A model generated the notes under the pieces. That model saw nothing but the letters and a program-made list of their open reading frames with translations. It had not been told where the DNA came from and made no database searches. From Pseudomonadota bacterium (GTDB lineage Bacteria; Desulfobacterota; Binatia; Binatales; Binataceae): DNA of 64,000 nt. Every line of letters begins with the position of its first letter. The stretch's first letter is position 1. Location of the stretch: assembly GCA_021324855.1 (NCBI GenBank), contig JAJPIG010000022.1, positions 121,777-185,776 of the forward strand, given 5' to 3'. The translations under genes were made by a program, and so were the position numbers. Shown here one piece after another: positions 1-22,274 of this stretch.

Positions 1-226
1 TTCCTTGTTTACATCAAGCATGATTTCTCACCGCTCCGGTCGTCTACCTTCTTGTTACCGGTAGCTGTGCCAGCCCCATTGGACAATCCCCCATACGGGT
101 GACCCGCTTGAACGGCGGCAGCCGGCCGTGCGGCCGGAGTACAATGGTGTTTGGATTCGCACTTTCCCCGCAAATCGGCCTATCTTACATCAATAATTTT
201 GACGCATTACCCGGAGGTCACATCCG

Positions 227-949
227 ATGCCCTATGAACTCTACTACTGGCCGACCATCCAGGGACGCGGCGAGTTCGTGCGCCTCGCCCTTGAAGAGGC
301 TGCCGCCGAGTACGTCGATGTCGCGCGGACGAAGAACGGGATGGCCGCGATGACGCGCATGATGGAGTCGCGCCAGGAGGTCCATCCGCCGTTCGCGCCG
401 CCGTTCCTGAAATCGGGACGGCTTCTGATCGCGCAGACCGCGAACATTCTGCTGTTCCTGGGCGCGCGCCATCGCCTGGCGCCGGCCGACGATGCGGGCC
501 GCCTCTGGACGCATCAATTGCAACTGACGATCGCCGACTGGCTGGTCGAGATTCACGACACGCATCATCCGATCGCCAGCGGGCTCTACTATGAAGATCA
601 GAAGAGTGAGTCGCGCCGCCGCGCCGCGGACTTCATCAAGAATCGGTTGCCGAAATATCTCGGCTACTTCCAACGGGTGATGGATGCGAATCCGCGGAGC
701 GACGTCTACTTGGTCGGCGCGCGTCTGACCTATGCCGATCTCTCGTTGTTTCAGACGGTGGCCGGGCTCAACTTCGCGTTTCCGCGCGCGATGGCGCGTA
801 TCGCGCGGCGCTACCCGCGCGTGATTGCGCTGCACGACCGCGTCGCCGAACGGCCCCGCATCGCATCGTACCTGGCCTCTGAGCGGCGCATCCCGTTCAA
901 CCAGCAAGGCATCTTCCGGCATTACCCGGAGCTTGATTCGAGCAAATAG
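227..949 (+). CDS. glutathione S-transferase family protein
   Basis: MPYELYYWPTIQGRGEFVRLALEEA is a GST N-terminal thioredoxin-like fold; helical C-terminal domain (LTYADLSLFQTVAGL). Confidence 0.9.
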   Translation: MPYELYYWPTIQGRGEFVRLALEEAAAEYVDVARTKNGMAAMTRMMESRQEVHPPFAPPFLKSGRLLIAQTANILLFLGARHRLAPADDAGRLWTHQLQLTIADWLVEIHDTHHPIASGLYYEDQKSESRRRAADFIKNRLPKYLGYFQRVMDANPRSDVYLVGARLTYADLSLFQTVAGLNFAFPRAMARIARRYPRVIALHDRVAERPRIASYLASERRIPFNQQGIFRHYPELDSSK

Positions 950-953
950 CGAT

Positions 954-1769
954 TTACGGCAGGATTGCGAAGGCGCGGGCGGGGAAGCCGAGGCCATGAC
1001 GCGGCTTCGGCCAGGTCACGACGATCAACGCACCGGTTGCGGGCACGCGATCGAGATTCGCCATCACCTCGATTTGCCAATGGCCGTGCGTGAGAATCCA
1101 GGTCTCGGACTTCATGTCGTCAGTCGTGTCGGTGTCCATCGATTCGTGGCCGTTGGCTACGATCCCGCGCTGTTCGTAAAGGAACTTGATCGCATCGAGC
1201 GACCAGGCCGGGAACGGTGAGCGTTTGAAGCGTTCCGGATTCGTATCCCAGTCCTTGTACATGTCGGTGCGGAGCGCGGCGAACGAGCCGGCCGGGACGC
1301 GGCCATGCTGATGCTCCCAGTTCCTGATGTCCTCGACCGTCAGCGCATGGTTCGGATCGCGCGCGAGGAGCGGCGTAATATCGAACACCACCAGCGGCAG
1401 AATCATCTGTTTGAGCGGAATCTGGTCCATCGTGATCCCTTTGGGATCGAAATGCGCCGGCGGGTCGATGTGCGTGCCGTACTGCCCGACCAACGAATAG
1501 AAAAAGCTTCGGAAATGGTCCTTCTCGATCGTGTAAGGCTCGCCGGTTTCCGGATCGGCAGCGCGCGAAAAGGTTGCCGAACCGAACCCCTTCCATACTG
1601 GGGTCGTCGGGCTGAACGAGTGGGTGAGATCGATGAACTGCTTCGAGGCAATGATTTGGTAGGCTTCGGCGAGAGATCGATCCGCGGCGAGTGACACGGT
1701 ACCGGCGCCAAGCACAGCGGCTGCAAGCAGCACGATCCGGAGAATTGAACCAGCCCGGTTCGGTCTCAT
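954..1769 (-). CDS. cyclase family protein (kynurenine formamidase-like), secreted
   Basis: FIDLTHSFSPTTPVWKGF..., GQYGTHIDPPAHF metal-binding motif of the cyclase family; signal peptide if started at MRPNRAG (ORF extends to 1877). Confidence 0.85.
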   Translation of the reverse strand: MRPNRAGSILRIVLLAAAVLGAGTVSLAADRSLAEAYQIIASKQFIDLTHSFSPTTPVWKGFGSATFSRAADPETGEPYTIEKDHFRSFFYSLVGQYGTHIDPPAHFDPKGITMDQIPLKQMILPLVVFDITPLLARDPNHALTVEDIRNWEHQHGRVPAGSFAALRTDMYKDWDTNPERFKRSPFPAWSLDAIKFLYEQRGIVANGHESMDTDTTDDMKSETWILTHGHWQIEVMANLDRVPATGALIVVTWPKPRHGLGFPARAFAILP

Positions 1770-2038
1770 CTGGGCCACCTCCATCCGAGCAGAGACGGTG
1801 CGAACCGTAACATAGATCGTGTCGGAAGAATTCAATCGATAACCAGACCCGGCTAAACCGACCGATACCTCCATCACCGATTACGATATGGCCTCGCAGA
1901 CGCTCGCGAATCGTCCGTCGTCCCCTGACATCTCCACATCAGGAGGCGGACCCAGCTTTTTCTGGTCTTCACAAGACTGAAGAGGAGCATCGATCACCGG
2001 TTCGCCATGGAGGCCGTGGGAACGCTAAGATATTTGCG

Positions 2039-3364
2039 ATGACTTTTCTGGCAGTACTGCTGCTGGGCGCCTGCGCCGTGCCGGTGCTCTATTTTTCGAT
2101 GCGGGGTACCGGGGCGATGCTCGCGATCTTCTCGCTGGAGTTCGCCGGCTATTACGCCGCGCCGGTGCTGATGCTGCATCGAGTGCAGATCGGCGATTTT
2201 CCCGCTCGTGATCTTCCGCCGCAAACGGTCTTCAAGGCGCTCGAACTTTCGCTCGCGAGCTTCATTCTCACCTGCCTCGGTTATTACCTGATTCCAAAAA
2301 GTTCAACGCTGATCCCAAGAATAAAATGTGCCTGGTCGAATCCGGGGATAATTCGGATGGCAGCGGTTGCGATGTGCGGGACGGGAATGGCCGCAAGCTA
2401 TGCACTCCTGCTCCTTAGGGGCGCTTCAGGGCCGAGTCAGTTTGTCGCGGTACCGGCTGAACTGCTGATGTACGGGGTGGCTCTGCTCTTCACCCTGCAA
2501 TTGATGCATCGCCTGAATCCGCTCTACCTGATCGCGCTCTGGGGAATTTTCATCCCGGCGCGTATGGCGCTCGGGCTGGCCGCGGGTGAGACCGCCGCCG
2601 TTCTGAGCGTTGGTTTGACTCTGTTGCTGTTGTATTGCGAACTGCGGGGCAGGATGTGGTGGTCTGCGATGATCATCGGAGCGTTTTCAGTCATTGTGCT
2701 GCGCCCTCTGATGACGCCGTTCCGCACATTAACCAGGGGGTCCGGTGTCGAGTCCGATGCTGGTGCTGCCGAGCGGCTGATAGTGTTCGGAAGAATCGCG
2801 CGCGGTGCGACGGAGGGGCGCTACGGCGACTTCGATCATCTGGAGCAATTCGCCGCCAGACGGCTCTGTGTAATCTGCACCTTCGCGGACGTGGTTCGGC
2901 AGACCCCAAGAATCGTTCCTTACTGGAACGGGGCTACGTACTACCCGATTCTGTTAAAGCCCATCCCCCGGCTGCTATGGCCCGACAAACCGCTCGATAT
3001 CTCCGGGCAGGACTTCGGCCATCGTTATGGTTACCTGGACCGAAGCAACTACGAAACCTCATACAATCTGCCTCAGACCGTCGAGCTGTACGCGAACTTC
3101 GGCACGATTGGTGTGCTGATCGGCTCCCTTCTGTTCGGCTTTCTGTATCGGTTCATCGAGTTGATGTTTTTTCATCCGAACAGCGGTATCGGAGCGGTTG
3201 CGATTGGGGCGGTGGCGTTGACCAACCTTCTGGCGATCGAATCAGGCATATCGCTCGCAATCGGCGGACTCATCCTGGCGATGATCGCAGTCTTCCCTGT
3301 GGCGCTGGTCGTCGATTTGACGGACCTATGGTCGGAATCGCGGCGTTGGATCAGCGCCGCTTAG
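2039..3364 (+). CDS. multi-TM protein, O-antigen/oligosaccharide polymerase-like
   Basis: Many hydrophobic segments; long hydrophilic loop (PRLLWPDKPLDISGQDFGHRYGYLDRSNYETSYNLPQT) resembling Wzy/EpsG-like polymerases. Confidence 0.55.
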   Translation: MTFLAVLLLGACAVPVLYFSMRGTGAMLAIFSLEFAGYYAAPVLMLHRVQIGDFPARDLPPQTVFKALELSLASFILTCLGYYLIPKSSTLIPRIKCAWSNPGIIRMAAVAMCGTGMAASYALLLLRGASGPSQFVAVPAELLMYGVALLFTLQLMHRLNPLYLIALWGIFIPARMALGLAAGETAAVLSVGLTLLLLYCELRGRMWWSAMIIGAFSVIVLRPLMTPFRTLTRGSGVESDAGAAERLIVFGRIARGATEGRYGDFDHLEQFAARRLCVICTFADVVRQTPRIVPYWNGATYYPILLKPIPRLLWPDKPLDISGQDFGHRYGYLDRSNYETSYNLPQTVELYANFGTIGVLIGSLLFGFLYRFIELMFFHPNSGIGAVAIGAVALTNLLAIESGISLAIGGLILAMIAVFPVALVVDLTDLWSESRRWISAA

Positions 3365-3407
3365 CATCGTCGCGGCTGCGGCTTTCTATCAACTTGCGAG
3401 GTTAACA

Positions 3408-5387
3408 ATGCTGACAGTGCGCAGCCGAGTATCGGAACGATGGGTTCCGTTCGCAGTCGCTGCGGCCGCAATGGCCGTCATCGTGGCTGGTCCCGGCTCG
3501 GCCTTCACTCAATCCGACGTTCTCACCGCGCTCGCCAACCAACGGTCAGGACGCGTTTTCAACGTCAGGACCTTCGGCGCGAGCGGCAGTCTGCGGACGG
3601 TGGATGTGACGGTCACGGCTGGCAGCACGATCGCGATTGTCCGAGGCGATGTAGCCGATTTCATTGTCGGCCAAACCGTCACGATTCTTCAGGCTGGCCG
3701 TCCACCGGCGGTCACCGCACCAACCGGCTTAACCGGGAGCGCGATTAGCTACGATAAGAGCGGGCGGATGGGACAGCCGTGCCGGGTCGATTCTGGAAAC
3801 GCGCGATGCGATGCGCGCTGGACCTGGCGAATCATCGCGGTCGACTCGCAACACGGCTCCAGCGCCCCGAGTGCGCCGCTTTCCATGGATCGCGCACCAG
3901 CTACTCCTAACCCTGCAAACCGCATCCATCTCATCTGGAACTCCGATGCCTCAGCCGTCAGTTACCTCGTTTACGGATGTCAAGGCGACGGGTGTACGCC
4001 GACGCTCCGCGCGGTTCTGCCCAACAACTGGTACACCTCCAAGGCGGGGCTCGAATGCGGTGGATGCACGCGGCCGGAGTTCATGATCTACGACTATATG
4101 GGGCACGACTTTGGGACCGACGAACTCAGTGGCAAGTCGATGCCGCCCGGGCCACGCAATCAAAGTTTCCACGCGCGAATCCGCTCGATAAGTGGCCGGA
4201 ATATCTCTCTCTCGGCTCCGCCTGCAGTGACGGTAAATACGAGGATGATTCACGATGACGCGCCGGCTTTTCAGGCTGCGATCGATCGCCTTCGGTTGGC
4301 CGGGGGCGTGCTCGCAGCCGGGGGCTTAATCCTGATTCCGCCCGGAGAGTACCCGATCGGAGAGACGCTCGATTTCTACCTGGCCTCCGGCGTGCGGCTT
4401 GCGGGACTTGGCTCAGCCTCTTCAACCCAGCTCGTATGGCATGGGGGCGCCGGCGGCATAATGATGAGCCTGAACCAGGCGCGCGACTGCATTCTCGAGA
4501 ACTTTACCCTCACATCTTTCTATGGTTCCACGCCCGGCGTCTTCATCGACATCGATCGATACGATCAGGGGCAGGGCATCAAATCGCCTGCGAGCCACGA
4601 CACGTTACGCAACCTCAGCCTTGAGCGGGCCGGGGTCGCCATCCGGCTGGGGAATCGCAGCAACGAGAACGGTGAATTGATGGAATTCCGCGACGTGGTC
4701 ATCGGCCCGGGCCCCAATGGCGAGGGTGGGTGGTACGGCTATTACATCGCGGGCGGGGGCGAGAGCTACGACGAGCGGATTGACGGCGGGACCGTCGCGA
4801 TGCGCGACGTCGGGGTTTATCTAAACCGTGTGGGTTCCGTCGACAGCTATGTGTTCAACCTGTCCCATAATTTAATCGACTGGTACGTCAACGATTTCGT
4901 CTCGTCGCACGTAGTCGAGATCGGATCGGACAGCGAGTTGGCGGCGCATCATCTGTTCGTTTCTTTTTCCCATCCACACGGAATCCACTTCGTGATCGCG
5001 AGCTCGCGATTGGTCACCGGCGGGAGAGCGATGGCCTCGGACGGATACTACATCGTCGATAACGCCAGCTTGGGGCTTCAGATCGTCGGCAATCTCATCA
5101 GCCAGCAGGTGGGCGCGCCGTGCAAAGTGATGTTTTCCAACGGCGATCAATCGCCGGCGCCGTTGCTCTCATCGCAAAACTTCTACGGTGATCCCCGTCC
5201 GTTCGCGACTCCGCCGGGGATAAGGCCGGCGCTGCTGTCGGTGATGGATACGAGCATGGTGCCGCATGCTCCTGCGATAAGCGGCGTAATCGATCCGGGA
5301 GTTGCGAATCTGATTGCCTCGATGATGCGCGCGGGAACCTCACCAGTGCCCGTCGGCGGTGCGCGGACGAAGCGCGTTGCGCCCTGA
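3408..5387 (+). CDS. secreted pectate lyase-like / right-handed parallel beta-helix protein
   Basis: Signal peptide; FNVRTFGASG..., DDAPAFQAAIDRLRLAGGVLAAGGLILIPPGEYPIGETLDF typical of Pectate_lyase_3-type beta-helix proteins. Confidence 0.75.
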   Translation: MLTVRSRVSERWVPFAVAAAAMAVIVAGPGSAFTQSDVLTALANQRSGRVFNVRTFGASGSLRTVDVTVTAGSTIAIVRGDVADFIVGQTVTILQAGRPPAVTAPTGLTGSAISYDKSGRMGQPCRVDSGNARCDARWTWRIIAVDSQHGSSAPSAPLSMDRAPATPNPANRIHLIWNSDASAVSYLVYGCQGDGCTPTLRAVLPNNWYTSKAGLECGGCTRPEFMIYDYMGHDFGTDELSGKSMPPGPRNQSFHARIRSISGRNISLSAPPAVTVNTRMIHDDAPAFQAAIDRLRLAGGVLAAGGLILIPPGEYPIGETLDFYLASGVRLAGLGSASSTQLVWHGGAGGIMMSLNQARDCILENFTLTSFYGSTPGVFIDIDRYDQGQGIKSPASHDTLRNLSLERAGVAIRLGNRSNENGELMEFRDVVIGPGPNGEGGWYGYYIAGGGESYDERIDGGTVAMRDVGVYLNRVGSVDSYVFNLSHNLIDWYVNDFVSSHVVEIGSDSELAAHHLFVSFSHPHGIHFVIASSRLVTGGRAMASDGYYIVDNASLGLQIVGNLISQQVGAPCKVMFSNGDQSPAPLLSSQNFYGDPRPFATPPGIRPALLSVMDTSMVPHAPAISGVIDPGVANLIASMMRAGTSPVPVGGARTKRVAP

Positions 5388-5506
5388 TTCGTTTCAAGTG
5401 TCAATTTGAAGCTCTTGGTCAAAAGCGCAACTCAACTAATTAGCGGATCTATTTGAGATGGCGCCTACTCAGGCTAATCTGCTATTGGCCAAGGGCAAAA
5501 AATCAG

Positions 5507-5911
5507 ATGACGGCGCTGTTCAAGAAGATCCTCTGTCCCGTGGATTTTGACCGGGTCTCGATTCCCGCGCTCGAGCTGGTCCATCAGCTCGCGCTTCAAA
5601 ACGAAGCGACGGTCTACTTGCTTTACGTGGTTCCCGGTCAGTCGCTGCCGATGGACCTGGAGAAAGTTGCCCGTGACAATCTGCGCGGCATCGCGCAAAA
5701 ATGGCTGGCTGACAGGATTCCCCACGAGATCGTCGTGAGTTCCGGCAAAGCCGCCGCCGGCATTGTTAATGCCCAACAGACCCTGAATGCCGACCTTATC
5801 GTTATGGCGACTCATGGGCGGACCGGCGCTGACCATGCTCGGTTGGGAAGCGTCGCTGAGCAGGTCATCCGGTATTCGTCCTGCCCCGTCATCACGGTCA
5901 GGCCGCGTTAA
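5507..5911 (+). CDS. universal stress protein (UspA family)
   Basis: FKKILCPVDFDRVSIPALELV...DLIVMATHGRTGADHARLGSVAEQVIRYSSCPVITVR; internal ATG at 5507 is the likely start of ORF 5453-5911. Confidence 0.92.
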   Translation: MTALFKKILCPVDFDRVSIPALELVHQLALQNEATVYLLYVVPGQSLPMDLEKVARDNLRGIAQKWLADRIPHEIVVSSGKAAAGIVNAQQTLNADLIVMATHGRTGADHARLGSVAEQVIRYSSCPVITVRPR

Positions 5912-6065
5912 GGCCTCACTCGGGGCCGCATCGAGAGGACACAGACCACCGATTCATTGGCTCCGATCGGGGCATCTCGGCCCCTCCGCGGCCTGTTGGC
6001 CGGCCTGAAAACCCGATTATCAACCTGATGCCTCGCGGTACGCTTTATGCCACATTTATTGGGCC

Positions 6066-6764
6066 ATGCGCGCAGCGGGACACCGGCAGGCAGCGGCGTT
6101 CGCATTCGGACTGGTTTGTCTCGCGCTTCAGCTCCCGTTCGCGAGCGCGCAGGATGTACCGCCATCCGACGCTCTGCCCCCGCCCAGCACAACTGAAATT
6201 CCTTCGGCGGTGATGCCGTCACAGAGCGCCGGAGCCCCCGACCTCTACAATTCTGGAATCGGCACACCTGCTCCGCAGGAGCCGACGCCGCCCGCGGAGT
6301 TACGCCAGGAAATGCAGGACCTGCACGACTTCATGGAGGACAGCGACGGGACATCATCGCTCGGGATGGTTTTGCACGAGGACCATCGCGCGATCGACGG
6401 CAATGGCGAAGTGGCGGGCCTGCTTATCGTCGAGGTAATGCCGGGGACGGCGGCGGCGATGGCTGGGCTGCGCGGCCTGCATGCGGGGATCGCGAACGCA
6501 TTGACGGGAATTGCATTCGCCGCGTCGCTCTTCTTCCCGCCCGCATCGCTGGCAGCGGCGGCCGTAAGCGGCTCGCGGATCGGCGAGTCCTACGACATGA
6601 TCATCGGCGTCGACAGCGAGCGAGTGACAAATTTCCTCCAATTCTCGGATCGGATGCGTTTTGCGCGTCCCGGTGAGTTGGTCTATCTGAGCATCTCGCG
6701 CAACGGCCGGCGGATGCAGGTGCCGGTCACGGTTCCCGTCGGCGCAGTTCCAGGCTCCCCTTGA
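6066..6764 (+). CDS. exported PDZ-like domain protein
   Basis: Signal-peptide-like N-terminus; GLLIVEVMPGTAAAMAGL...YDMIIGVDSERVTNFLQFSDRMRFARPGELVYLSISRNGRRMQVPVTV resembles a PDZ fold. Confidence 0.6.
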   Translation: MRAAGHRQAAAFAFGLVCLALQLPFASAQDVPPSDALPPPSTTEIPSAVMPSQSAGAPDLYNSGIGTPAPQEPTPPAELRQEMQDLHDFMEDSDGTSSLGMVLHEDHRAIDGNGEVAGLLIVEVMPGTAAAMAGLRGLHAGIANALTGIAFAASLFFPPASLAAAAVSGSRIGESYDMIIGVDSERVTNFLQFSDRMRFARPGELVYLSISRNGRRMQVPVTVPVGAVPGSP

Positions 6765-7092
6765 AACGGGTGACTTTCAGGCATTCATGTCGTTCGGCTG
6801 GTCACACGGTAAAAGCGGAGCAGTCGTTTCCAATTAGGTTGTAACCCAGGCCGCGCCACGTTTGCGTTCAGACTCGATCGCTGTCAAAAAACAGCGAGAC
6901 GCGAGGTTTGAATGCGCAAGGAAGTCCTGCGGACGCCGTCCTAAGGGGACTCGCTGCGCTCGGGATGACGGCCGAAAAAGCGCGGCCAGCTTCAGAGGAA
7001 ATCGACCGCCGTCCACGAAAAATTCACAAACTATGTTCACAAACTCTGAATGACGAAATGAGTTCTGCAGAGCTTCCCGAACGGAGATCACA

Positions 7093-7971
7093 ATGGCGAT
7101 GAAGAAGACGGGCTACTACGACAACTGGGTTCTGGCCAACGGCGTTCGTACTCATTACTCGTGGGCCGGTACCGAAGGTCCGGCGATCATCCTGCTGCAC
7201 GGCGGCGGACCTGGATCGTCCGGCGAGGCCGGCTGGCGCTTCATGATGCCGGCGCTGGCGCAGGCGGGCTTCCGCGCGATCGCTCCGGATCAAATCTCGT
7301 TCGGGATGACCGACGGACGTCCCCACGCCTGGCCGGTCCTCGGTCATCAGAGCCTCGTCGATCACGTCGCCGACTTCATCGATGCGCTGTGCCTCGATGA
7401 AGTCTGCGTAGTCGGCAACTCGCAGGGCGCATACGTCGCCGCCAAGTATGCGCTCGATCATCCGGAGCGTGTACGGCGGCTCTTTCTGATCGGCAGCGGC
7501 ACGATCGCCGGCGCGATGAAGGTCGAATGGCCGGGGATGGAAACCAACCCGGGGCTGCTGGCGATCCGCAACTATGACTACACCGAAGAAGGGATGCGCA
7601 AGTTTTTGCTCGCGATCGTCAACGACCCCTCGACCGTGACGGACGAACTCGTGCGTTACCGCACCGAGCTCAGTAGACGCCCGGGAATGCGCGAGGCGCG
7701 CGAGGCGTTCGATTCGTACGTGGCGCGGATGCGCCGCGAGCCCAAGCTGTGGGCGCGTTACAGCCTGCAGGATTCGCTGCCGAAGCTCGCGATCCCGACC
7801 AAGTTCATCTGGGGCAAGCAGGACAAGTTCGCGCCGGTCTCGATGGGTCACAAGCTGGCTGAGCTGCTGCCGAACATACAATTCGAATTCATCGACGCCG
7901 GCCATCAAGCGCAGACCGACAATCCGGAGGTGGTAAACCGCCTGGTGATCGAATTCATGCGCGCGGGCTGA
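7093..7971 (+). CDS. alpha/beta hydrolase (MhpC/meta-cleavage hydrolase-like)
   Basis: LLHGGGPGSSGEAGWRF, VVGNSQGAYVAAKYAL nucleophile elbow, IDAGHQAQTDNPE catalytic His region. Confidence 0.88.
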   Translation: MAMKKTGYYDNWVLANGVRTHYSWAGTEGPAIILLHGGGPGSSGEAGWRFMMPALAQAGFRAIAPDQISFGMTDGRPHAWPVLGHQSLVDHVADFIDALCLDEVCVVGNSQGAYVAAKYALDHPERVRRLFLIGSGTIAGAMKVEWPGMETNPGLLAIRNYDYTEEGMRKFLLAIVNDPSTVTDELVRYRTELSRRPGMREAREAFDSYVARMRREPKLWARYSLQDSLPKLAIPTKFIWGKQDKFAPVSMGHKLAELLPNIQFEFIDAGHQAQTDNPEVVNRLVIEFMRAG

Positions 7972-7974
7972 ATC

Positions 7975-8742
7975 ATGGACGTCGAAACAAGCTGGATAAC
8001 GTTTCGCAGCGGCAACGAGGAGATCGGCGGTTTCGTCGCGCGTCCGCGATCGAAAGGCCGGTGGCCCGGCCTAGTAGTCGGTCACGAAAATCTCGGCCTG
8101 ACCGAGTATCGCCAGAACGAGACCGCGCAGATGGCCGCGCATGGAATTGTTGTGCTGGTCACGAACCTTTATTCGAGAATCGGCGGCAAAGCGCCGGCCG
8201 GTCCGTTCGTCACCCCCGATGATCGCCGCCGCGCCGCGTTCCTCTCGATGCCCGATGAGCGCAGCGCGGAAGATTTTCTCGCCAGCGCCGGATGGCTGCG
8301 CGCTCAAAACTACGTCGATTCCAGCGCCGTGGCGTTGCTCGGCTTCTGCTCGGGCGGCTCGCTTGCGTTCTATACCGCATGCACGCGGCCGGGCGTGTTC
8401 CGCTGCCTGGTATCGATCTATGGCAACATTATCCTGCGCGGTGAATTCACCGAGGATCGCCAGCCCAAGTCGCGCATCCCGCTCGCGCCTTCGTTAAGCT
8501 GCCCGATGCAGGGGCATTATGGCGCGAAGGACTCTGAGATCCCTCCCGCCCATGTCGCGGAACTGTGGCGCGTCCTCGCCGAGCACGACAAGCAGTTTGA
8601 GTTTTACAGTTATCCGGGAGCGAATCACGTTTTTTCCGATTCGAGCCATCCCAATTACCAGCCCGAGGCGACGCGCCTGATGTGGTCGCGAACCTATCGC
8701 TACCTTCGCGAACAACTCGGGCATTCAATAGAGACGTCCTAG
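7975..8742 (+). CDS. dienelactone hydrolase family protein
   Basis: DLH fold: GLVVGHENLGL, VALLGFCSGGSLAFYTA, GHYGAKDSEIPP, YPGANHVFSD. Confidence 0.9.
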   Translation: MDVETSWITFRSGNEEIGGFVARPRSKGRWPGLVVGHENLGLTEYRQNETAQMAAHGIVVLVTNLYSRIGGKAPAGPFVTPDDRRRAAFLSMPDERSAEDFLASAGWLRAQNYVDSSAVALLGFCSGGSLAFYTACTRPGVFRCLVSIYGNIILRGEFTEDRQPKSRIPLAPSLSCPMQGHYGAKDSEIPPAHVAELWRVLAEHDKQFEFYSYPGANHVFSDSSHPNYQPEATRLMWSRTYRYLREQLGHSIETS

Positions 8743-14212: not shown

Positions 14213-14758
14213 TCACGGCAGCGGTTGTCGGCCGCCGGGCACCGGCGCATCGAACGCGTTGATGACCATCGCAGCCATCGTGTAGAAGCCAGCGGCGGTG
14301 ATTGCTTCGATCAGGACCTCAAGATCGAAGTGGAGTCGGGCGCGTTCGAAGCTGCTGTCGGACAGCCGCCGGGATTCATAGAGCTCTGTCACGATTTCAT
14401 AGATCACCCGTTCATCGTCGCGAGTGAAGTTCGGGACGCGGCGATTGCGCAGCGCCTCCACGAGCTCGGGCGCGAGTCCCGCCGCGAGCGCAGCCTGCTC
14501 GTGCGCAAACCATGCGTATTGGGCCGACCAGTGGCGGGCGGTGATCAGTACGATCATCTCGAACAAACGCTTCTCGAGCTTGCCTTCGAGCCGAATCGCG
14601 TTGCCCAGTTGATTCGCGCCCTCTGCGAGTCGCGGGGCGTGCAGCCAAATCGCGAACGGACCGGCGACCATGCCGCCGCGAGCCTGCGCGATCTGATCGT
14701 AAATCGATTTTTGGACCGAGGTCAGTTTTTCGGTTTTGATTTCCGGCACGCGGCTCAT
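14213..14758 (-). CDS. carboxymuconolactone decarboxylase / AhpD-like family protein
   Basis: FEMIVLITARHWSAQYAWFAHEQAALAAGL motif; preferred start MSRVPEIKTEKL at 14758. Confidence 0.85.
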   Translation of the reverse strand: MSRVPEIKTEKLTSVQKSIYDQIAQARGGMVAGPFAIWLHAPRLAEGANQLGNAIRLEGKLEKRLFEMIVLITARHWSAQYAWFAHEQAALAAGLAPELVEALRNRRVPNFTRDDERVIYEIVTELYESRRLSDSSFERARLHFDLEVLIEAITAAGFYTMAAMVINAFDAPVPGGRQPLP

Positions 14759-14784: not shown

Positions 14785-16578
14785 TTAGTGATGCGGGACT
14801 TCCAGCGGGCGGTCGCGATGCGTGACGACCCACTCGCCGTTTTCAAGCAGGGCCTGCGCACCGAGCCACTGGAGCGTCGGGCCGAAGCGGGGATGGGCGA
14901 CGTCGGTCATGTGTTCGCGCGCGGCTGCATAAAGCAGCTTCATCCGCTGATACATCCGCACGTGAGAATGGAGCGCGAGCTTGTCGAGGCGGAAATGGCT
15001 GAGCGCGGCGGCCACCGCGGTCATTGTGATAGCGACCAGCACGATGCCGTGGGCGCGATGTTCGCCGATCAAGTACCGCTCCCATCTGAGATCGTTGTAA
15101 TGCAGCGCGAGCAGCGCACCCGCGCCGACCGCGGCCGCCAGCGAAAGGCCGGCGGCGAGCAAGAGCCAGTTCGCCAGTTCCCAGCGCCGCAGCACGCGAT
15201 GCTGCCGGCGGATTGCATTGGTGAAATAATCGCACTGCGCCTGTACCCAGTAGCGGCGCACGATTTCAGCCGTGCCGGCGGTGAGCTTCCCAAGCGGCCA
15301 ACCCGCGGCAACCAAAGCATCTCGGCATAGGTCGCGAATCCAGTCGAGTTCCCATCGATGACGCCCGACGTAGTGGTCGGACACGGTGTCATCCACCCCC
15401 GCAAGCCGCCAAAAGAATTGAACCCGCAGGCCCTCAGCGAGCGCGCGGAAATCCTGGTAGCGATCCTGCAACTGGTCGCGTTTGACGCGCCACCAGAGCA
15501 GGAATGCTGCCATCATCAACGTCGGATAACCGATCATAGTGAGCGCCTCGGCGCGCGGCCACGCGATCACGTTGAACACGTGCATCGAGAGGTCAACTAG
15601 AAGTGCGGCGAGGAATACCAGCGCCATAAGCTCCCAGAGCGTCCGTCGCGTGCGATCGCGATTTTGCTGCGCGATCGCGTTGGCGATTCCGAAGCGGCGG
15701 CGAATCAGCATGAGACCGTCGCGCAGCGGCGCGAGTTCCGGATCCATCAGGACGGCGTCGGGGACAAGGTCACGTTCGCTCGCTTCGATCTCGGCGAACT
15801 CCGCGGCCTCCAGCGCGCAAACCTCACGATTGAAGCGTTCGAGCGGCGCGAAGATATGGCGCCTGCATGAGTCAGCCGGCGACTCGGCTTCAAACTCGTC
15901 ATTCTGCGGAAGGAGATCACAGCGCTCGACGGGCCGGCGCATGGCATGACGCAGACGCGGCGTTACGATTTGAAAGACCGGGCCGGCGACGTTGAAGGTT
16001 TTCGCCGCCCCGTCTCCGCTGTCGCTCGCGGACCCCCGTGTCAGCATCCGATCGACCACTTCGGCGGTGCCGCCGGGCTGACCTCGCTCGCCGTCCCACA
16101 GGGCGACCATCACGTGACAGCGTGACGCGAGAAACCGCCCTAGTCGCTGATATGCGAGCATGCGCGCGTCGTTGCCGGGGTCTGAATTGGTCGAACCGCC
16201 ATGGAGACTGCGGTCGAGTGTGATGATTTCGCGCGCCCGGCCGATGAGCGTATCAAACTCGGCGATTGATTCCGGCGTCTCGAAGTCATGGATGTAAGTT
16301 TCGCGATCCATCGGCAGGACCGCGATCAGTTCCGCATCGATCCCGGCAGCGAGCGCCGCACGGGCGATCAGCCGGTCAGCGCCTTCCGCCAGTCCGGACA
16401 TCACGACGATCGGCGTGTACGGCGAGTTACGCCGCAATTCAAGAAAAATCTCGTGAACCTTGGCGGTCAGGTCAGGGACTGCATCAGGATCGAGGTCGCG
16501 ATGACCGGTTGCGCCGACCATCAGCGGCAGCAACAAATCGCGCCGCGAAGAACGCAGGGCCGCATGCGCGTCGATCAT
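14785..16578 (-). CDS. SLOG (Rossmann-like nucleotide sensor) domain protein with C-terminal multi-TM SLATT-like region
   Basis: N-term LMVGATGHRDLDPDAV...TPIVVMSGLAEGADRLIARAALAAG...AVLPMDRETYIHDF is SLOG-like. C-term has four hydrophobic segments separated by RYQDFRALAEGLRVQFFWRLAG and YWVQAQCDYFTNAIRRQHRVLRRW, SLATT-like. Confidence 0.7.
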   Translation of the reverse strand: MIDAHAALRSSRRDLLLPLMVGATGHRDLDPDAVPDLTAKVHEIFLELRRNSPYTPIVVMSGLAEGADRLIARAALAAGIDAELIAVLPMDRETYIHDFETPESIAEFDTLIGRAREIITLDRSLHGGSTNSDPGNDARMLAYQRLGRFLASRCHVMVALWDGERGQPGGTAEVVDRMLTRGSASDSGDGAAKTFNVAGPVFQIVTPRLRHAMRRPVERCDLLPQNDEFEAESPADSCRRHIFAPLERFNREVCALEAAEFAEIEASERDLVPDAVLMDPELAPLRDGLMLIRRRFGIANAIAQQNRDRTRRTLWELMALVFLAALLVDLSMHVFNVIAWPRAEALTMIGYPTLMMAAFLLWWRVKRDQLQDRYQDFRALAEGLRVQFFWRLAGVDDTVSDHYVGRHRWELDWIRDLCRDALVAAGWPLGKLTAGTAEIVRRYWVQAQCDYFTNAIRRQHRVLRRWELANWLLLAAGLSLAAAVGAGALLALHYNDLRWERYLIGEHRAHGIVLVAITMTAVAAALSHFRLDKLALHSHVRMYQRMKLLYAAAREHMTDVAHPRFGPTLQWLGAQALLENGEWVVTHRDRPLEVPHH

Positions 16579-16595
16579 GACGCTTCACACCTGGC

Positions 16596-17813
16596 TCAGC
16601 TTACGCGCTTCCATTCCATCGCGGGCATCGCCGGTCCGGTCAGCGTGGTGCTCGTGGTGCCGGCAATTTCAACGGTGTTCGCATTGATGAAACGATAGGT
16701 CCCGTCGAAGAGCATCCCCTTGCTCTCCGAGTTCGAGGTCCATCGGCCGCCATGTGCGGTCGTGATCGTGCCAACGTCTTCGGCGCTGGCCGAAAACTCG
16801 TAAGTCCCACCGGGATAAAACTTGAACTGCATTCGCCACGGAATCCTGCCCAGGGTCGGATTGAATGTGAAGAGCGCGGGACGGTCGGCGGCTCCGGTTC
16901 CCGAAGCCGCGGCGGAGACCAGCTTGAAGGCTTTGCCGGTCAGAATTTCGGGGGGAAATGTCGTCGTCGTGCTGGAGAAACCGATCATCACCGTCCAGAC
17001 ACCGTTGGGAACACCAGTGGTCGGATTCGCAACCATCGGCGGATACGATCCAGGGGCGACCCCGCCCACCAGCCGCGACGCGCCATCGGCAGTGACGAAA
17101 TAGACCAGCGTGTCCTTTACCACTACCCTGCCGGTCTCCGTGTAATCGATATCAAGCCGGTAGTTGCCGCGATGATCGACGAAGAGCGAGAAAGCGATGT
17201 TGTCCGGGCCCATTACCTGGGAGGCTGTCCACTTGCCAACCAGTCGATGGTCGACTGGACCGCCATACATCAGCCACCAAATGAGCGCCAGCACTGCGAT
17301 TAGAACGGCAGTCCCGATACCGGCGCGAACCAGCGTGCGTCGATCGAGACCGCGCGTGACCGGTCGGGTGACTGCGCGTGGCGGCGGTTCGATCGCTCTT
17401 CCGGTGCGGCGCGCCTCGAGGATCGCGTGGACGGTGTCCGCGATGTAATCGAGATGCTGCGCGAACGGCGGCGTGATGGCATCCAGCCAGTGCGGTGTGC
17501 TGAGGAAATATTCCAGATTGCGGCCGGGCTTGGCGTCCTCGATCCGGATCGGGACGATCAGCACTTCTTTGTTAACGGCGCGTTCGACTTCGCGTTTGAT
17601 TTGTGGGGAGGCGTCGGCGTTGCGCGAGAAGACCAGCGCCATTACCTGCGAACCTTCGATCGCATCGATAATCGCGCCGCCCCAATCCATACCGGGCAGG
17701 ATGTCGCGCGGGGCGATCCAGCATCGGATGCCGCGCGATTCGAGCTTGGCGCAGACCGCATCCGCCGCCGGCTTATCTTGCGAGGAATACGAGATGAAAA
17801 CGTCGTGCGCCAT
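16596..17813 (-). CDS. TIR domain - single TM - extracytoplasmic beta-rich (lipocalin-like) domain protein
   Basis: N-term MAHDVFISYSSQDKPAADAVCAKLESRGIRCWIAPRDILPGMDWGGAIIDAIEGSQVMALVFSRNADASPQIKREVERAV = TIR; TM TAVLIAVLALIWWLMYGG; C-term LVGKWTASQ..., GGRWTSNSESKGMLFDGTYRF. Confidence 0.85.
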   Translation of the reverse strand: MAHDVFISYSSQDKPAADAVCAKLESRGIRCWIAPRDILPGMDWGGAIIDAIEGSQVMALVFSRNADASPQIKREVERAVNKEVLIVPIRIEDAKPGRNLEYFLSTPHWLDAITPPFAQHLDYIADTVHAILEARRTGRAIEPPPRAVTRPVTRGLDRRTLVRAGIGTAVLIAVLALIWWLMYGGPVDHRLVGKWTASQVMGPDNIAFSLFVDHRGNYRLDIDYTETGRVVVKDTLVYFVTADGASRLVGGVAPGSYPPMVANPTTGVPNGVWTVMIGFSSTTTTFPPEILTGKAFKLVSAAASGTGAADRPALFTFNPTLGRIPWRMQFKFYPGGTYEFSASAEDVGTITTAHGGRWTSNSESKGMLFDGTYRFINANTVEIAGTTSTTLTGPAMPAMEWKRVS

Positions 17814-17909: not shown

Positions 17910-17950
17910 AACGGAGCCCGGCCAGCCTGTATGGCCGGCCGGGCTCCGTT
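17910..17950 (-). terminator. intrinsic terminator downstream of the 1434-aa gene
   Basis: Perfect 14-bp inverted repeat AACGGAGCCCGGCC ... GGCCGGGCTCCGTT; on the minus strand it is followed by ATTTG. Confidence 0.7.
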
Positions 17951-17969: not shown

Positions 17970-20900
17970 TTATGGCAGGCTCAGGACGAGATTCTGATCG
18001 AAGTCGCAGGTCCCGATGCTGAACTGCGCGTTCCTGCTCTTCATCTTATTTCCGACGTGGGTCGTCACGGTCAGAACATAGATTCCGGTCCGCAACGATT
18101 TGTGCGTCGTGACCGTTCCATACTCATACTGATACTCGAACGACGGACAGGGCGGCGTGCCGGTGACGACAGTCAGCGGCGCGTTGACCCTGCGGTCGAT
18201 CAAGGTAAGCGGTGAGATGTCCTCGCTCGGCGCGTTAACCCGCAGCAGCGCGATCCTGTCCACGTGTGCAGCGGGCGTTCCGTTGACGAGGATCAGCGCG
18301 CGGACGCCGCGGCCGGTGCTCTCACCGCACATCGGCACCGGGGTCGTGGCCGTCGTATGCAGAATCGGATCGGTCTGGTAGGTCACGTTGACCTGAGCGG
18401 TGTTGGTCCGCGCGATCGGCGAATTCGGCGAGAACACCGCGTCGAGGTCTCCCGCTCCGAGCTGTTGGCCCGGACCAAGCGTGATCGGCAGCGTCGGCTG
18501 CCCCGCCAGCGAGTACTCGTTGGCGTTCGTGCCGCTGATGCCGAGGTTGGTGATCGTCACTCCGCAAGCGTTGCTGGCATTCGCGATCGGCAGTCCGAGC
18601 GACGAGTGGCATACACCGCGGTTCTTGATCACGGTGGGCGGGAACGTCAGCCCATTGGTCACCAGCGAGATACCGGGGCTCGGCGTGTCGCCCGTCAGCG
18701 ACTCCTGGAAAACCGGCGTCACCGGGTCGTCGCTGTTGATGGTCAGCGTGCAGTTCTTCGCGCCGACCGACGTAGGCGTGAACTTCACGATCAGGTCGAG
18801 GTTCGAGTCCGGTGAAACCGGGTTCGGGAACGGATCGCTCGTAATCGTGAAATCGGAGCAGTTGACCGTCGCGCTGGTGACGTTCAAGTCGCACTTGCCT
18901 ACGTTGTTCACCTCGAACGTCTGCTGTTCCGTGTTCTCGGCGCAGACGTTGCCGAAGTTCGCGGTACCGGTAACCGCGATCTTGCCCGGCGCGGAGCTGC
19001 CCTGGACGGCCACGGCCAGCGTCGGATCGCTCACGTCGCTCGACATGATGTCGATATTCCCGGTGTCAGGCGACGAGGTGATCGCCGTTGGCGTGTACCG
19101 GATCGGCACCGCGACCGAGGTCCCGGGACTCAACACCAGCGGATAGGTGATCACGGAAGCCACCGTGAACAGCGGGTTGGTCGAACTGATGCCCGTCGTG
19201 TTCAGCGGGCAGGCTCCGTTGTTGGTGATCGTCAGGTTAAGGTCACTGAACGAGCCGCGGCACACATTGCCGAAGTCGCCATTGGGAGCGATCGAAGCCG
19301 CGATCTTGCCCGACGTCGAAGTCCCACTCACAGCGACCAGCGAGATCGGATTGACCGGATCGTTGGTAGTGATCGTGATGTTGGCCGTATCGGGAACACT
19401 GGTTACCGCGGTCGGCGTGTACCGGATCGGCAGTTCAATCGAAGTCCCTGCGTGCACCACAATCGGGAACGAAAGGACCGTGGGCGGCGCAAACAGCGGA
19501 TTGCTGGACGCGACATTGGTAATCTGCAGATCGCAGGTCCCGCTGTTGGTAACCGTCAGCGCCAGGTCCTTGAACGAATTGAGACAGACGTTGCCGTAAT
19601 TGCCGCTCTGCGCAATCACGGTTCCCACCACCGGTGCGCCTGAAGTCGCCGTGTAGGTGACCTGCAGCGCCGGCTGGAACGGATCATTGCTGTTGATCTG
19701 GAAAGTGGCCGTTTCAGTCACATTGGGCTGCGATGGCGTGTAGACGATGTTGTAGTCGACCTCGCTGCCCGCGGCCACCGTCACCGGCGCTGATGGCGGG
19801 CTTAGCGCAAAATTGTTGCTCCCCGAAATCCGCGCGATGCTCGAGATGCTTAGGTCGCCTGCGCCTACATTGAAGATCTGCAGTTTCGATGTAAACGGGC
19901 CGTTGCCGCAAACCGTCCCGAAACTGAAATTCGAGTTTACCTGGATCAGGGGCACAGTCGGCGGATCCAGCTCGAAGACACTGCGGCCATAGGTACCAAC
20001 GCGCAGCAGCTCGGGCGATGCGTTCGGATCGAGCTGGACGGAAGTGACCTGGACCGTCGGCAGTCCAAGGCCCAGCACTTGCCAGCTATTGCCGTTGTCG
20101 GCGGTCTGGAAAACGCCGGCATCGGTTCCGATGATAATCGTATGCGGGTTGGTGTTCGGATCGATCGTTACCGAATTGACCGGAATATCCGGCAGGTTCT
20201 GGATGCCGCCGCCCGCCGTGCCGCTGATATCGGTCCATGTGGCGCCGCTGTCAGTGCTCCGGAATACATGCTTGGTCGGCAGCAGATCCGGATTGATGCC
20301 GGTAAAGCCCGGATAGGTGACAACTATGGTGTTCGGCGTGGTCGGATCGATTGCGACCGCCGATACGCCCACTCCGGAAGGCGCGCCCGGTATCGTGACG
20401 TTGTTCCAGGTTGCCGACGCGCCCAGCAACGCGTTGGTCGTGAACGTCAGGGTGCCGTCGTTCAGGCCGAGCCACACCGTATTGCCATCGGCCGGCGTGC
20501 CCGCGATCGCGTTAATGCCCACGTCGTTCGGGACGAGATGCATCGCGGTCCAGGTAGCGCCTTCATCGGTGCTCTGGTACAGCGTGGTATCCGGACTGCT
20601 GAAGCTTGAGGCGTAGGCAATCTTGTCACTTGCGATCGGATCGAACGCCACTGCACCGATGCTTCCTGGCAAGCTCGGGATGCCAAAGGTCCATCCCACG
20701 CCGCCGTTTGTGGTCAGAATCGAGGTTCCGTCGTCGTTCCCGATCGCGATATTCGGATTGCCCGGGTCAACCGCCACCGGACCGCCGTCACCGTCGATGC
20801 CGAGATGCCAGTTCGCAGCCGAAAACGACGGCTGCATCTCGACCGTACCGGTGTCCTGTGTCCCGCCGTATGTATAAGCATTGTTCGACACGCTGTTGCG

Positions 20901-22274
20901 GCCGATGTCGATACCGCGGAACAGATTGGTCGCGATCGCTCCCACGCCGCCGGTATTCGTCGGACCGTTGATGTTTTTCCAGGTCGAGCCTCCATTACTC
21001 GAGGTTGCGATGCCGCCATCCTGACCGACGTAAAGCGGTGTCGGCGGGCCGGAAACGTGAGTAGCCGGACTGAAGACCAGCGCATGATGGTCCCAATGGA
21101 CCTGGTTCAAGGTAATGGCAGGCGAACTGAAGGTGACTGAAGTGTTCGTGGTAGTGCCGTTGGTCGAAAGCCACAGTTCCTGGAATCCAATGTAAACGCG
21201 ATCGGCGTTCAAGGGATCCACGCCGACCGTCTGATCGTAGCCGCATTGGCAGCCACTGCCGGCATTGCCATCCTGATCGCCAGGACCGCTGGTGGGCGGA
21301 TTCGATTCCGCACCGCCGGCCGCCGGAATGTTCTGCCAGGTCGCGCCGTAGTCAGTTGAACGCCACATCCCGAGGAAGCGCGACGGCGAAGGTTTGGTGT
21401 TCTGCACCGTGGTATAGATCACGTGATCGTTCGGCGCCGTCGACTGCCCGAACGCGATATAGCCAATCTTGGTCGGATCGTTCGGCGACTCCAGTGGAGA
21501 ATTGTTGCTTGTGGTCCACAGGTTCGCGCCGAAGGTCTGGCCGCCGTCGTTGGAAATGAAAATCCCAAGTCCGTACACGGCCGCGATGACCGTGTTGGGC
21601 GCCGTCGTATCGAGCTTGAGGTCCGTGATATAGCTGGTCGCGGTGGCTCCGGGTGGAATGATGTTGGTGAAAGAATTGCCGCCGTCTGCCGAACGAAATA
21701 GTCCCGCGGTGGTCGCCACCACCAGCACGTTCGCCGCCGGCGAGACCATCCGGATGATGTCATGGCCGGCCAACGTCTGCGAACCCGGCACCAGCGTCCA
21801 GGAGCCACCCTGGTCGGTCGACTTGTAAATGCCGATCGGGTTGTCGAATCCGTTGCTGAAGTTGTTGCCGGTTCCAAAATAGACGATCGACGGATTACCG
21901 AAATCGAGCGCCACCGCGCCGCCTGACAGCGACGCCAGCGAATCGGTCATCGGAAACCAGGTGTTGCCGCCATCGGTGGTTTTCCAGATGCCGCCGTTGT
22001 TGGTCGAGATGTACATCACCTGATCGGTGCTGCCGCGCGGATCGATCGCGATTTCGGTCACCTCGCCCGAGTCCGGTCCGGCGCCCTGGTAATTATAGTT
22101 GGCATCGATAGTGAGCGGGGCTGGTCCGACCTGGTTCCACTGCACGCCCGTAAGTCCGCCGGCTCTTGAGATCCGGGTGGTCGTGGCGAAGATTGCCGTT
22201 GCAACGACGGCGCACGCTATAGTTCCGATCGCAAACTTTTGGAATCGATACATTTGATAGTCCCCCCGTTCCAC
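17970..22274 (-). CDS. large exported protein: sialidase/VPS10-like BNR repeats plus tandem choice-of-anchor-D/ASH-like beta domains
   Basis: Repeated STDQG(G/A)SWT, TDSGATWTDI, TADNGNSWQVLG BNR motifs in the N-terminal ~750 aa; four ~105-aa repeats (GNVCLNSFKDLALTVTNSGTCDLQITNV...) in the C-terminal part. Confidence 0.85.
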   Translation of the reverse strand: MERGDYQMYRFQKFAIGTIACAVVATAIFATTTRISRAGGLTGVQWNQVGPAPLTIDANYNYQGAGPDSGEVTEIAIDPRGSTDQVMYISTNNGGIWKTTDGGNTWFPMTDSLASLSGGAVALDFGNPSIVYFGTGNNFSNGFDNPIGIYKSTDQGGSWTLVPGSQTLAGHDIIRMVSPAANVLVVATTAGLFRSADGGNSFTNIIPPGATATSYITDLKLDTTAPNTVIAAVYGLGIFISNDGGQTFGANLWTTSNNSPLESPNDPTKIGYIAFGQSTAPNDHVIYTTVQNTKPSPSRFLGMWRSTDYGATWQNIPAAGGAESNPPTSGPGDQDGNAGSGCQCGYDQTVGVDPLNADRVYIGFQELWLSTNGTTTNTSVTFSSPAITLNQVHWDHHALVFSPATHVSGPPTPLYVGQDGGIATSSNGGSTWKNINGPTNTGGVGAIATNLFRGIDIGRNSVSNNAYTYGGTQDTGTVEMQPSFSAANWHLGIDGDGGPVAVDPGNPNIAIGNDDGTSILTTNGGVGWTFGIPSLPGSIGAVAFDPIASDKIAYASSFSSPDTTLYQSTDEGATWTAMHLVPNDVGINAIAGTPADGNTVWLGLNDGTLTFTTNALLGASATWNNVTIPGAPSGVGVSAVAIDPTTPNTIVVTYPGFTGINPDLLPTKHVFRSTDSGATWTDISGTAGGGIQNLPDIPVNSVTIDPNTNPHTIIIGTDAGVFQTADNGNSWQVLGLGLPTVQVTSVQLDPNASPELLRVGTYGRSVFELDPPTVPLIQVNSNFSFGTVCGNGPFTSKLQIFNVGAGDLSISSIARISGSNNFALSPPSAPVTVAAGSEVDYNIVYTPSQPNVTETATFQINSNDPFQPALQVTYTATSGAPVVGTVIAQSGNYGNVCLNSFKDLALTVTNSGTCDLQITNVASSNPLFAPPTVLSFPIVVHAGTSIELPIRYTPTAVTSVPDTANITITTNDPVNPISLVAVSGTSTSGKIAASIAPNGDFGNVCRGSFSDLNLTITNNGACPLNTTGISSTNPLFTVASVITYPLVLSPGTSVAVPIRYTPTAITSSPDTGNIDIMSSDVSDPTLAVAVQGSSAPGKIAVTGTANFGNVCAENTEQQTFEVNNVGKCDLNVTSATVNCSDFTITSDPFPNPVSPDSNLDLIVKFTPTSVGAKNCTLTINSDDPVTPVFQESLTGDTPSPGISLVTNGLTFPPTVIKNRGVCHSSLGLPIANASNACGVTITNLGISGTNANEYSLAGQPTLPITLGPGQQLGAGDLDAVFSPNSPIARTNTAQVNVTYQTDPILHTTATTPVPMCGESTGRGVRALILVNGTPAAHVDRIALLRVNAPSEDISPLTLIDRRVNAPLTVVTGTPPCPSFEYQYEYGTVTTHKSLRTGIYVLTVTTHVGNKMKSRNAQFSIGTCDFDQNLVLSLP

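Follow-up and report, generated by a model that had tools for sequence, protein, structure and literature searches.

The window (the whole stretch of DNA that was analysed, 64,000 nt) carries on its minus strand two adjacent genes, of which the first (16596–17813) encodes a 405-aa TIR protein with a predicted transmembrane (TM) helix and the second (14785–16578), 17 nt further downstream, a 597-aa protein in which a SLOG domain is fused to tandem SLATT hairpins, as judged from its predicted fold and its family relatives. Both open reading frames, their strand and the 17-nt gap agree exactly with an earlier, sequence-only reading of this DNA. A probable terminator hairpin on the same strand (17910–17950; about -45 kcal/mol, z = -5.9) lies in the interval upstream of the TIR gene and separates the pair from the gene that precedes it. 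Across the hairpin, the preceding gene (17970–22274, minus strand) encodes a 1434-aa protein that begins with a signal-like hydrophobic segment and contains Sortilin/BNR and repeated ASH/HYDIN-like Ig domains. Downstream of the pair follows a third co-directional gene, CMD-like (14213–14758), which was rejected as an operon member since its homologues in two loci of genome G002 sit in unrelated contexts. An empty-site comparison of the window with G002 showed no synteny, searches for a sigma-70 promoter and for Rfam families gave no match, and no CD-NTase gene, the criterion for CBASS/SMODS, lies beside the pair.

The N-terminal 135 residues of the first protein (17409–17813) match the Pfam family TIR_2 (E = 1.8e-22; 80.6 bits against a cut-off of 28), the modelled domain resembles the TIRs of SARM1, AbTir and RUN1 in fold, and the putative catalytic residue Glu75 (17589–17591) is invariant across 11 aligned TIR partners, all of which bears out the TIR domain that had been read from the sequence. 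The 3.75-Mb genome contains no other TIR_2 gene, and the product of this one is probably an enzyme making an NAD-derived signal. A TM helix is predicted at residues 164–182 (17268–17324; hydropathy 2.26; a low-confidence helix in the model), and the arginines preceding it on its N-terminal side predict that the TIR domain lies inside. The remaining ~220 residues (183–405; 16599–17267) are predicted to form an extracytoplasmic beta-rich domain, modelled at low confidence, for which 247 genomes of the phylum yielded no reliable relatives; we infer that this part may serve as an extracytoplasmic sensor. TIR-TM layouts are also found at loci L034, L061, L069, L075, L078, L093, L099, L103 and L133, while some TIR partners, including those of Burkholderiales, have no TM helix. 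The C-terminal domains of the TIR partners vary, being of beta, WD40/propeller or TPR type.

A SLOG domain fused to tandem SLATT hairpins

Taken alone, the second protein falls under every Pfam and NCBIfam threshold (YAcAr SLOG 0.019, SLATT_1 0.14, DUF4231 0.47) and gives only a marginal DprA-type match in PADLOC, so the earlier call of SLOG and SLATT rested on weak signal. A structure model built on a 66-member alignment (pLDDT 90, pTM 0.90) resolves a Rossmann domain at residues 17–222 (15913–16530, minus strand), followed by two long helical hairpins. With Foldseek, the Rossmann part matches YpsA (E = 3.4e-4, probability 1.00) and also DprA; among phage proteins its fold matches are DprA-like (TMt 0.79) or YspA-SLOG. 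The domain carries the motifs GATGHR, LAEGADRL, ALWDG and GGT, and 13 of the 66 aligned members match Pfam YAcAr-SLOG. With a fold of the YpsA/DprA/LOG type and these glycine-rich motifs, the domain falls within the SLOG superfamily, and the SLOG-like N-terminus that the sequence had hinted at is thereby upheld. Columns conserved at more than 90% in this part are G25 H26 R27, L63 A64 G66 A67 D68 L70, P89, D98 F99, ALWDG (159–163) and G170 T171, and such strong conservation of the SLOG loops would fit a ligand pocket. Only GGT is kept of the LOG-enzyme motif PGGxGTxxE; the position of its catalytic glutamate, valine in the window protein, is variable in the family, which favours sensing over catalysis. 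A profile search of PDB sequences with the family returned membrane-protein noise only. TRPM channels resemble the second protein in having a cytosolic SLOG-related N-terminus followed by a membrane domain, and TRPM2 binds ADPR; the fold matches to TRPM are weak, with low TM-score, which makes the resemblance a lead only.

The four predicted membrane helices of the C-terminal part form two hairpins, a SLATT_3/DUF4231-like unit at residues 280–392 (15403–15741) and a SLATT_1-like unit at residues 434–588 (14815–15279). Among the 66 aligned members, NCBIfam SLATT_3 is found in 34 and SLATT_1 in 27, and several homologues match the full SLATT_1 profile on the second hairpin and SLATT_3 or DUF4231 on the first. 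These separate matches on each hairpin identify the C-terminus as tandem SLATT, an assignment by profile and two-helix hairpin that holds for the family, the window copy itself being below threshold. The four-helix, SLATT-like C-terminus of the sequence-only reading therefore stands, as two modules in tandem rather than one. Residues conserved at more than 90% in the membrane part are R378, E382, R385, W413, W444, Q448, E579 and W583. That SLATT acts as a nucleotide-gated effector is an old idea; Burroughs et al. reportedly predicted in 2015 that SLATT domains are nucleotide-gated membrane effectors. Later papers still call this role a prediction (PMC9503650, PMC7159879).

Repeated pairing with TIR genes

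A scan of genome contigs with the window protein as a single sequence returned no relatives; a profile from a five-member same-phylum alignment confirmed at least 194, and 80 loci were kept. These span about 15–20 phyla and are nearly all full length, and none of Pfam, NCBIfam and PADLOC offers a model specific to the family. The window protein forms a long branch, with identities of at most 33%, in a quick tree whose branches are long and in which its own placement is unsure. No SLOG gene was found in 57 close relatives, including a same-genus genome that was searched, relatives occur in nine of 246 other sampled genomes of the phylum (some of them weak), and a tblastn search of phage records found no family member.

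This patchy distribution bears on a reading in which the pair is not anti-phage and belongs to normal physiology, with the TIR-TM protein as an envelope or stress receptor that senses a ligand outside the cytoplasm and SLOG-SLATT as a regulated channel or adaptor. The predicted TM helix and changing C-terminal domains of the TIR partners would suit such a role, as would the surroundings of the pair, where none of the ten other window proteins tested is a defence protein and the defence-island association named earlier as a check did not appear. A distribution this patchy, together with locations on a plasmid and on a recombinase-bearing element, fits conflict systems better, and we consider the physiological role distinctly improbable.

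Pairing was counted over 85 loci (the window, four same-phylum loci and the 80 scanned loci) with an iterated TIR profile, a gene being called adjacent when directly next to the SLOG-SLATT gene, co-directional and within 300 nt. A TIR gene occurs somewhere in 32 loci, and 15 of the 85 have one in this adjacent position, which is more than 100 times background overall; the fetched stretch has no TIR at 53 loci, many of the contigs being short. In a control comprising the whole genomes of 42 loci (200 TIR_2 genes in 179 Mb), 13 adjacent pairs were observed against about 0.05 expected and 25 TIR genes in the flanks against 0.55 expected, ratios that are inflated because these genomes were chosen so as to cover most of the TIR-positive loci. 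The tree implies no fewer than eight state changes for adjacency, which is seen in about seven separate clades: the window, Chthoniobacterales (L034), a Bacteroidota MAG (L028), Burkholderiales (four loci), two clostridial groups and a mostly gammaproteobacterial group (five loci). Seven genomes, that of the window and six others, have no TIR_2 gene besides this neighbour. The TIR link of the SLOG-SLATT family is not chance and the pairing arose repeatedly, which confirms the expectation that the pair would co-occur elsewhere. In the window genome itself, the long branch, the low identity and the same-genus genome searched without finding a SLOG gene would agree with a chance adjacency of two unrelated genes; the TIR enrichment and repeated pairing speak against this at the family level, and we regard it as highly improbable.

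The converse search, for the nearest relatives of the window TIR gene in the 247 genomes of the phylum, gave as the five closest TIR-TM proteins whose C-termini are of TPR or propeller type (52–61% in the TIR domain; L150, 37%), none of which has SLOG-SLATT beside it. The sixth match, a TIR-CHAT protein in G137, has a SLOG-SLATT gene about 1.4 kb away. At L147 and L149 the TIR-TM-TPR gene directly follows a gene for a RyR-TPR_S-SLOG-cyclase protein (L147:857–4674; L149:5876–9710), the middle region of which is SLOG by profile comparison (hhalign: 95.6%, E = 1.1e-8). Of the remaining close relatives, two are at contig ends and L146 has no partner. Since the closest TIR relatives are often without SLOG-SLATT, the pair is modular and not obligate, and the L147 and L149 sequences read as if SLOG recurs as a TIR partner while the output domain changes. 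The same two loci also place two nucleotide-signal systems within one operon.

A candidate signalling route and its relation to Thoeris

We propose, with a probability of roughly 0.6, that the TIR protein makes an ADPR-type signal, that the SLOG domain binds this signal and that the SLATT part permeabilises the membrane. A cue, possibly acting through the extracytoplasmic C-terminal domain, would be the biological trigger of the membrane-anchored TIR protein, whose predicted NADase activity would turn NAD+ into an ADP-ribose-type signal. Once bound by SLOG in the second protein, this putative ligand would cause the two SLATT hairpins to rearrange in a presumed gating step, and these hairpins, forming a candidate pore, would then permeabilise or depolarise the inner membrane, so that the cell is stopped or killed. 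We count against this model the 53 of 85 loci without a TIR, the partnerless L146, the long branch of the window protein and the lack of defence genes in the tested part of the window. To our knowledge, ThsB and the best-known TIR signallers are not membrane-anchored, which we also count against it.

Among 78 immediate co-directional neighbours of the family, TIR_2 is the commonest Pfam family (14), followed by TPR repeats and then by DUF4062 (4) and RyR (3). DUF4062 has been reported as a TIR-like antiphage NADase, acting via NAD+ depletion in Swarozyc (PMC13174449, a 2026 preprint), and RyR-domain proteins reportedly bind 2'cADPR and 3'cADPR or hydrolyse them (PMC13232231, a 2026 preprint). 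These recurrent neighbours, tied to NAD/cADPR immunity by independent preprints, count for an ADPR-type signal, as does the cyclase-bearing SLOG partner at L147 and L149, where the sensor appears kept and the output swapped. Executioner-type NADases among the neighbours, namely DUF4062 and a TIR-STING gene (a CBASS effector type) directly upstream of SLOG-SLATT at L025 (1458–4372), could also point to the reverse order, with SLOG-SLATT as a membrane-bound sensor or regulator responding to a nucleotide or membrane perturbation and TIR as an NAD+-depleting executioner. We think this order unlikely, for SLATT is elsewhere predicted to provide the output, RyR and SLOG serve in binding, and two of the nearest TIRs pair with the cyclase-bearing SLOG protein in an apparent output swap. 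An extension of the preferred route from TIR to SLOG-SLATT, which we offer tentatively as a possibility, is a logic akin to that of Toll-like receptors: an extracytoplasmic sensor, a TM helix and a catalytic TIR would share one chain, a diffusible NAD-derived messenger would open the SLOG-tandem SLATT pore, and lineages would share the SLOG reader while swapping the output (pore, cyclase or caspase).

By analogy, the pair looks like a cousin of the Thoeris immune systems. As in type I Thoeris (ThsB TIR with ThsA SIR2-SLOG), a TIR gene adjoins a SLOG-carrying gene and an NAD-derived signal is predicted, whereas here the effector is tandem SLATT instead of SIR2, the SLOG domain is N-terminal, the TIR is membrane-anchored and the signal is so far a prediction. 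A TIR gene beside an effector with a putative signal-binding domain, the arrangement that characterises Thoeris, is recurrent in the family. The proteins of the pair contain none of the known ThsA effector types (SIR2, macro, caspase), and the pair is accordingly not classed as Thoeris, though its parts would work alike; no curated Thoeris model exceeds its cut-off, the TIR domain matching ThcB4 weakly (14.4 bits against 220). Of the earlier proposal, the juxtaposition of TIR and SLOG-SLATT is supported, and so is a Thoeris-like logic with a membrane effector; the membrane-anchored TIR is unlike ThsB as generally described. Thoeris with a TM-macro ThsA also combines TIR with a membrane effector and is thought to cause nucleotide-induced membrane disruption (PMC11204291); the sensor of the present pair is SLOG, not macro, and its four TM helices are two SLATT hairpins. 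Surveys by Burroughs and Aravind described phage TIR + SLATT pairs with SLATT as a predicted ADPr-regulated membrane effector (PMC9503650, PMC7159879), whereas the present family joins SLOG and two SLATT units in a single protein, widespread in cellular genomes, and a TM helix together with sensor repeats is frequent in its TIR partners. It is possible, if rather less than probable, that TIR + SLOG-SLATT pairs already figure in a 2025 systematic discovery of TIR signalling systems. If the proposed route holds, an ADPR-gated membrane effector would join TIR immunity and a widespread family with no model of its own would gain a function. With one enzyme, one fused sensor-effector and many related pairs across diverse phyla, the family offers a compact test case.

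Other loci show further arrangements of these domains. On a Caballeronia plasmid, TIR and WD40 genes come after SLOG-SLATT, and at L034 (5336–11771) TIR-TM-WD40, SLOG-SLATT and a SLATT_1-alpha/beta hydrolase fusion form one apparent operon. In Burkholderiales (L048, L055, L059 and L066; 6172–10861 in L048), two tandem SLOG-SLATT paralogues, the first with a divergent SLOG, precede a TIR without TM helix. SLOG-SLATT at L016 (4290–11712) lies amid TrkA-RyR, AAA-RyR, ThsB_TIR and a large TIR-repeat gene, a dense cluster of ADPR-type domains. An IMG/VR sequence (L133, IMGVR_UViG_3300048836_000958; 1–8129) has a RyR open reading frame, SLOG-SLATT, a facing TIR-TM-DUF5050 propeller gene and two large serine recombinases, and is probably a mobile element with three types of ADPR-signal domain. 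TIR-caspase systems resemble the family in that ThsB_TIR-caspase or TIR-caspase operons on two plasmids, B. subtilis pBS72 (L137:4635–6489) and an Agrobacterium pTi plasmid (L138:3642–5483), end in a small SLOG-matching protein, and differ from the pair in having a caspase output and no SLATT. This small third gene is annotated as hypothetical, and its product matches the SLOG of the window family.
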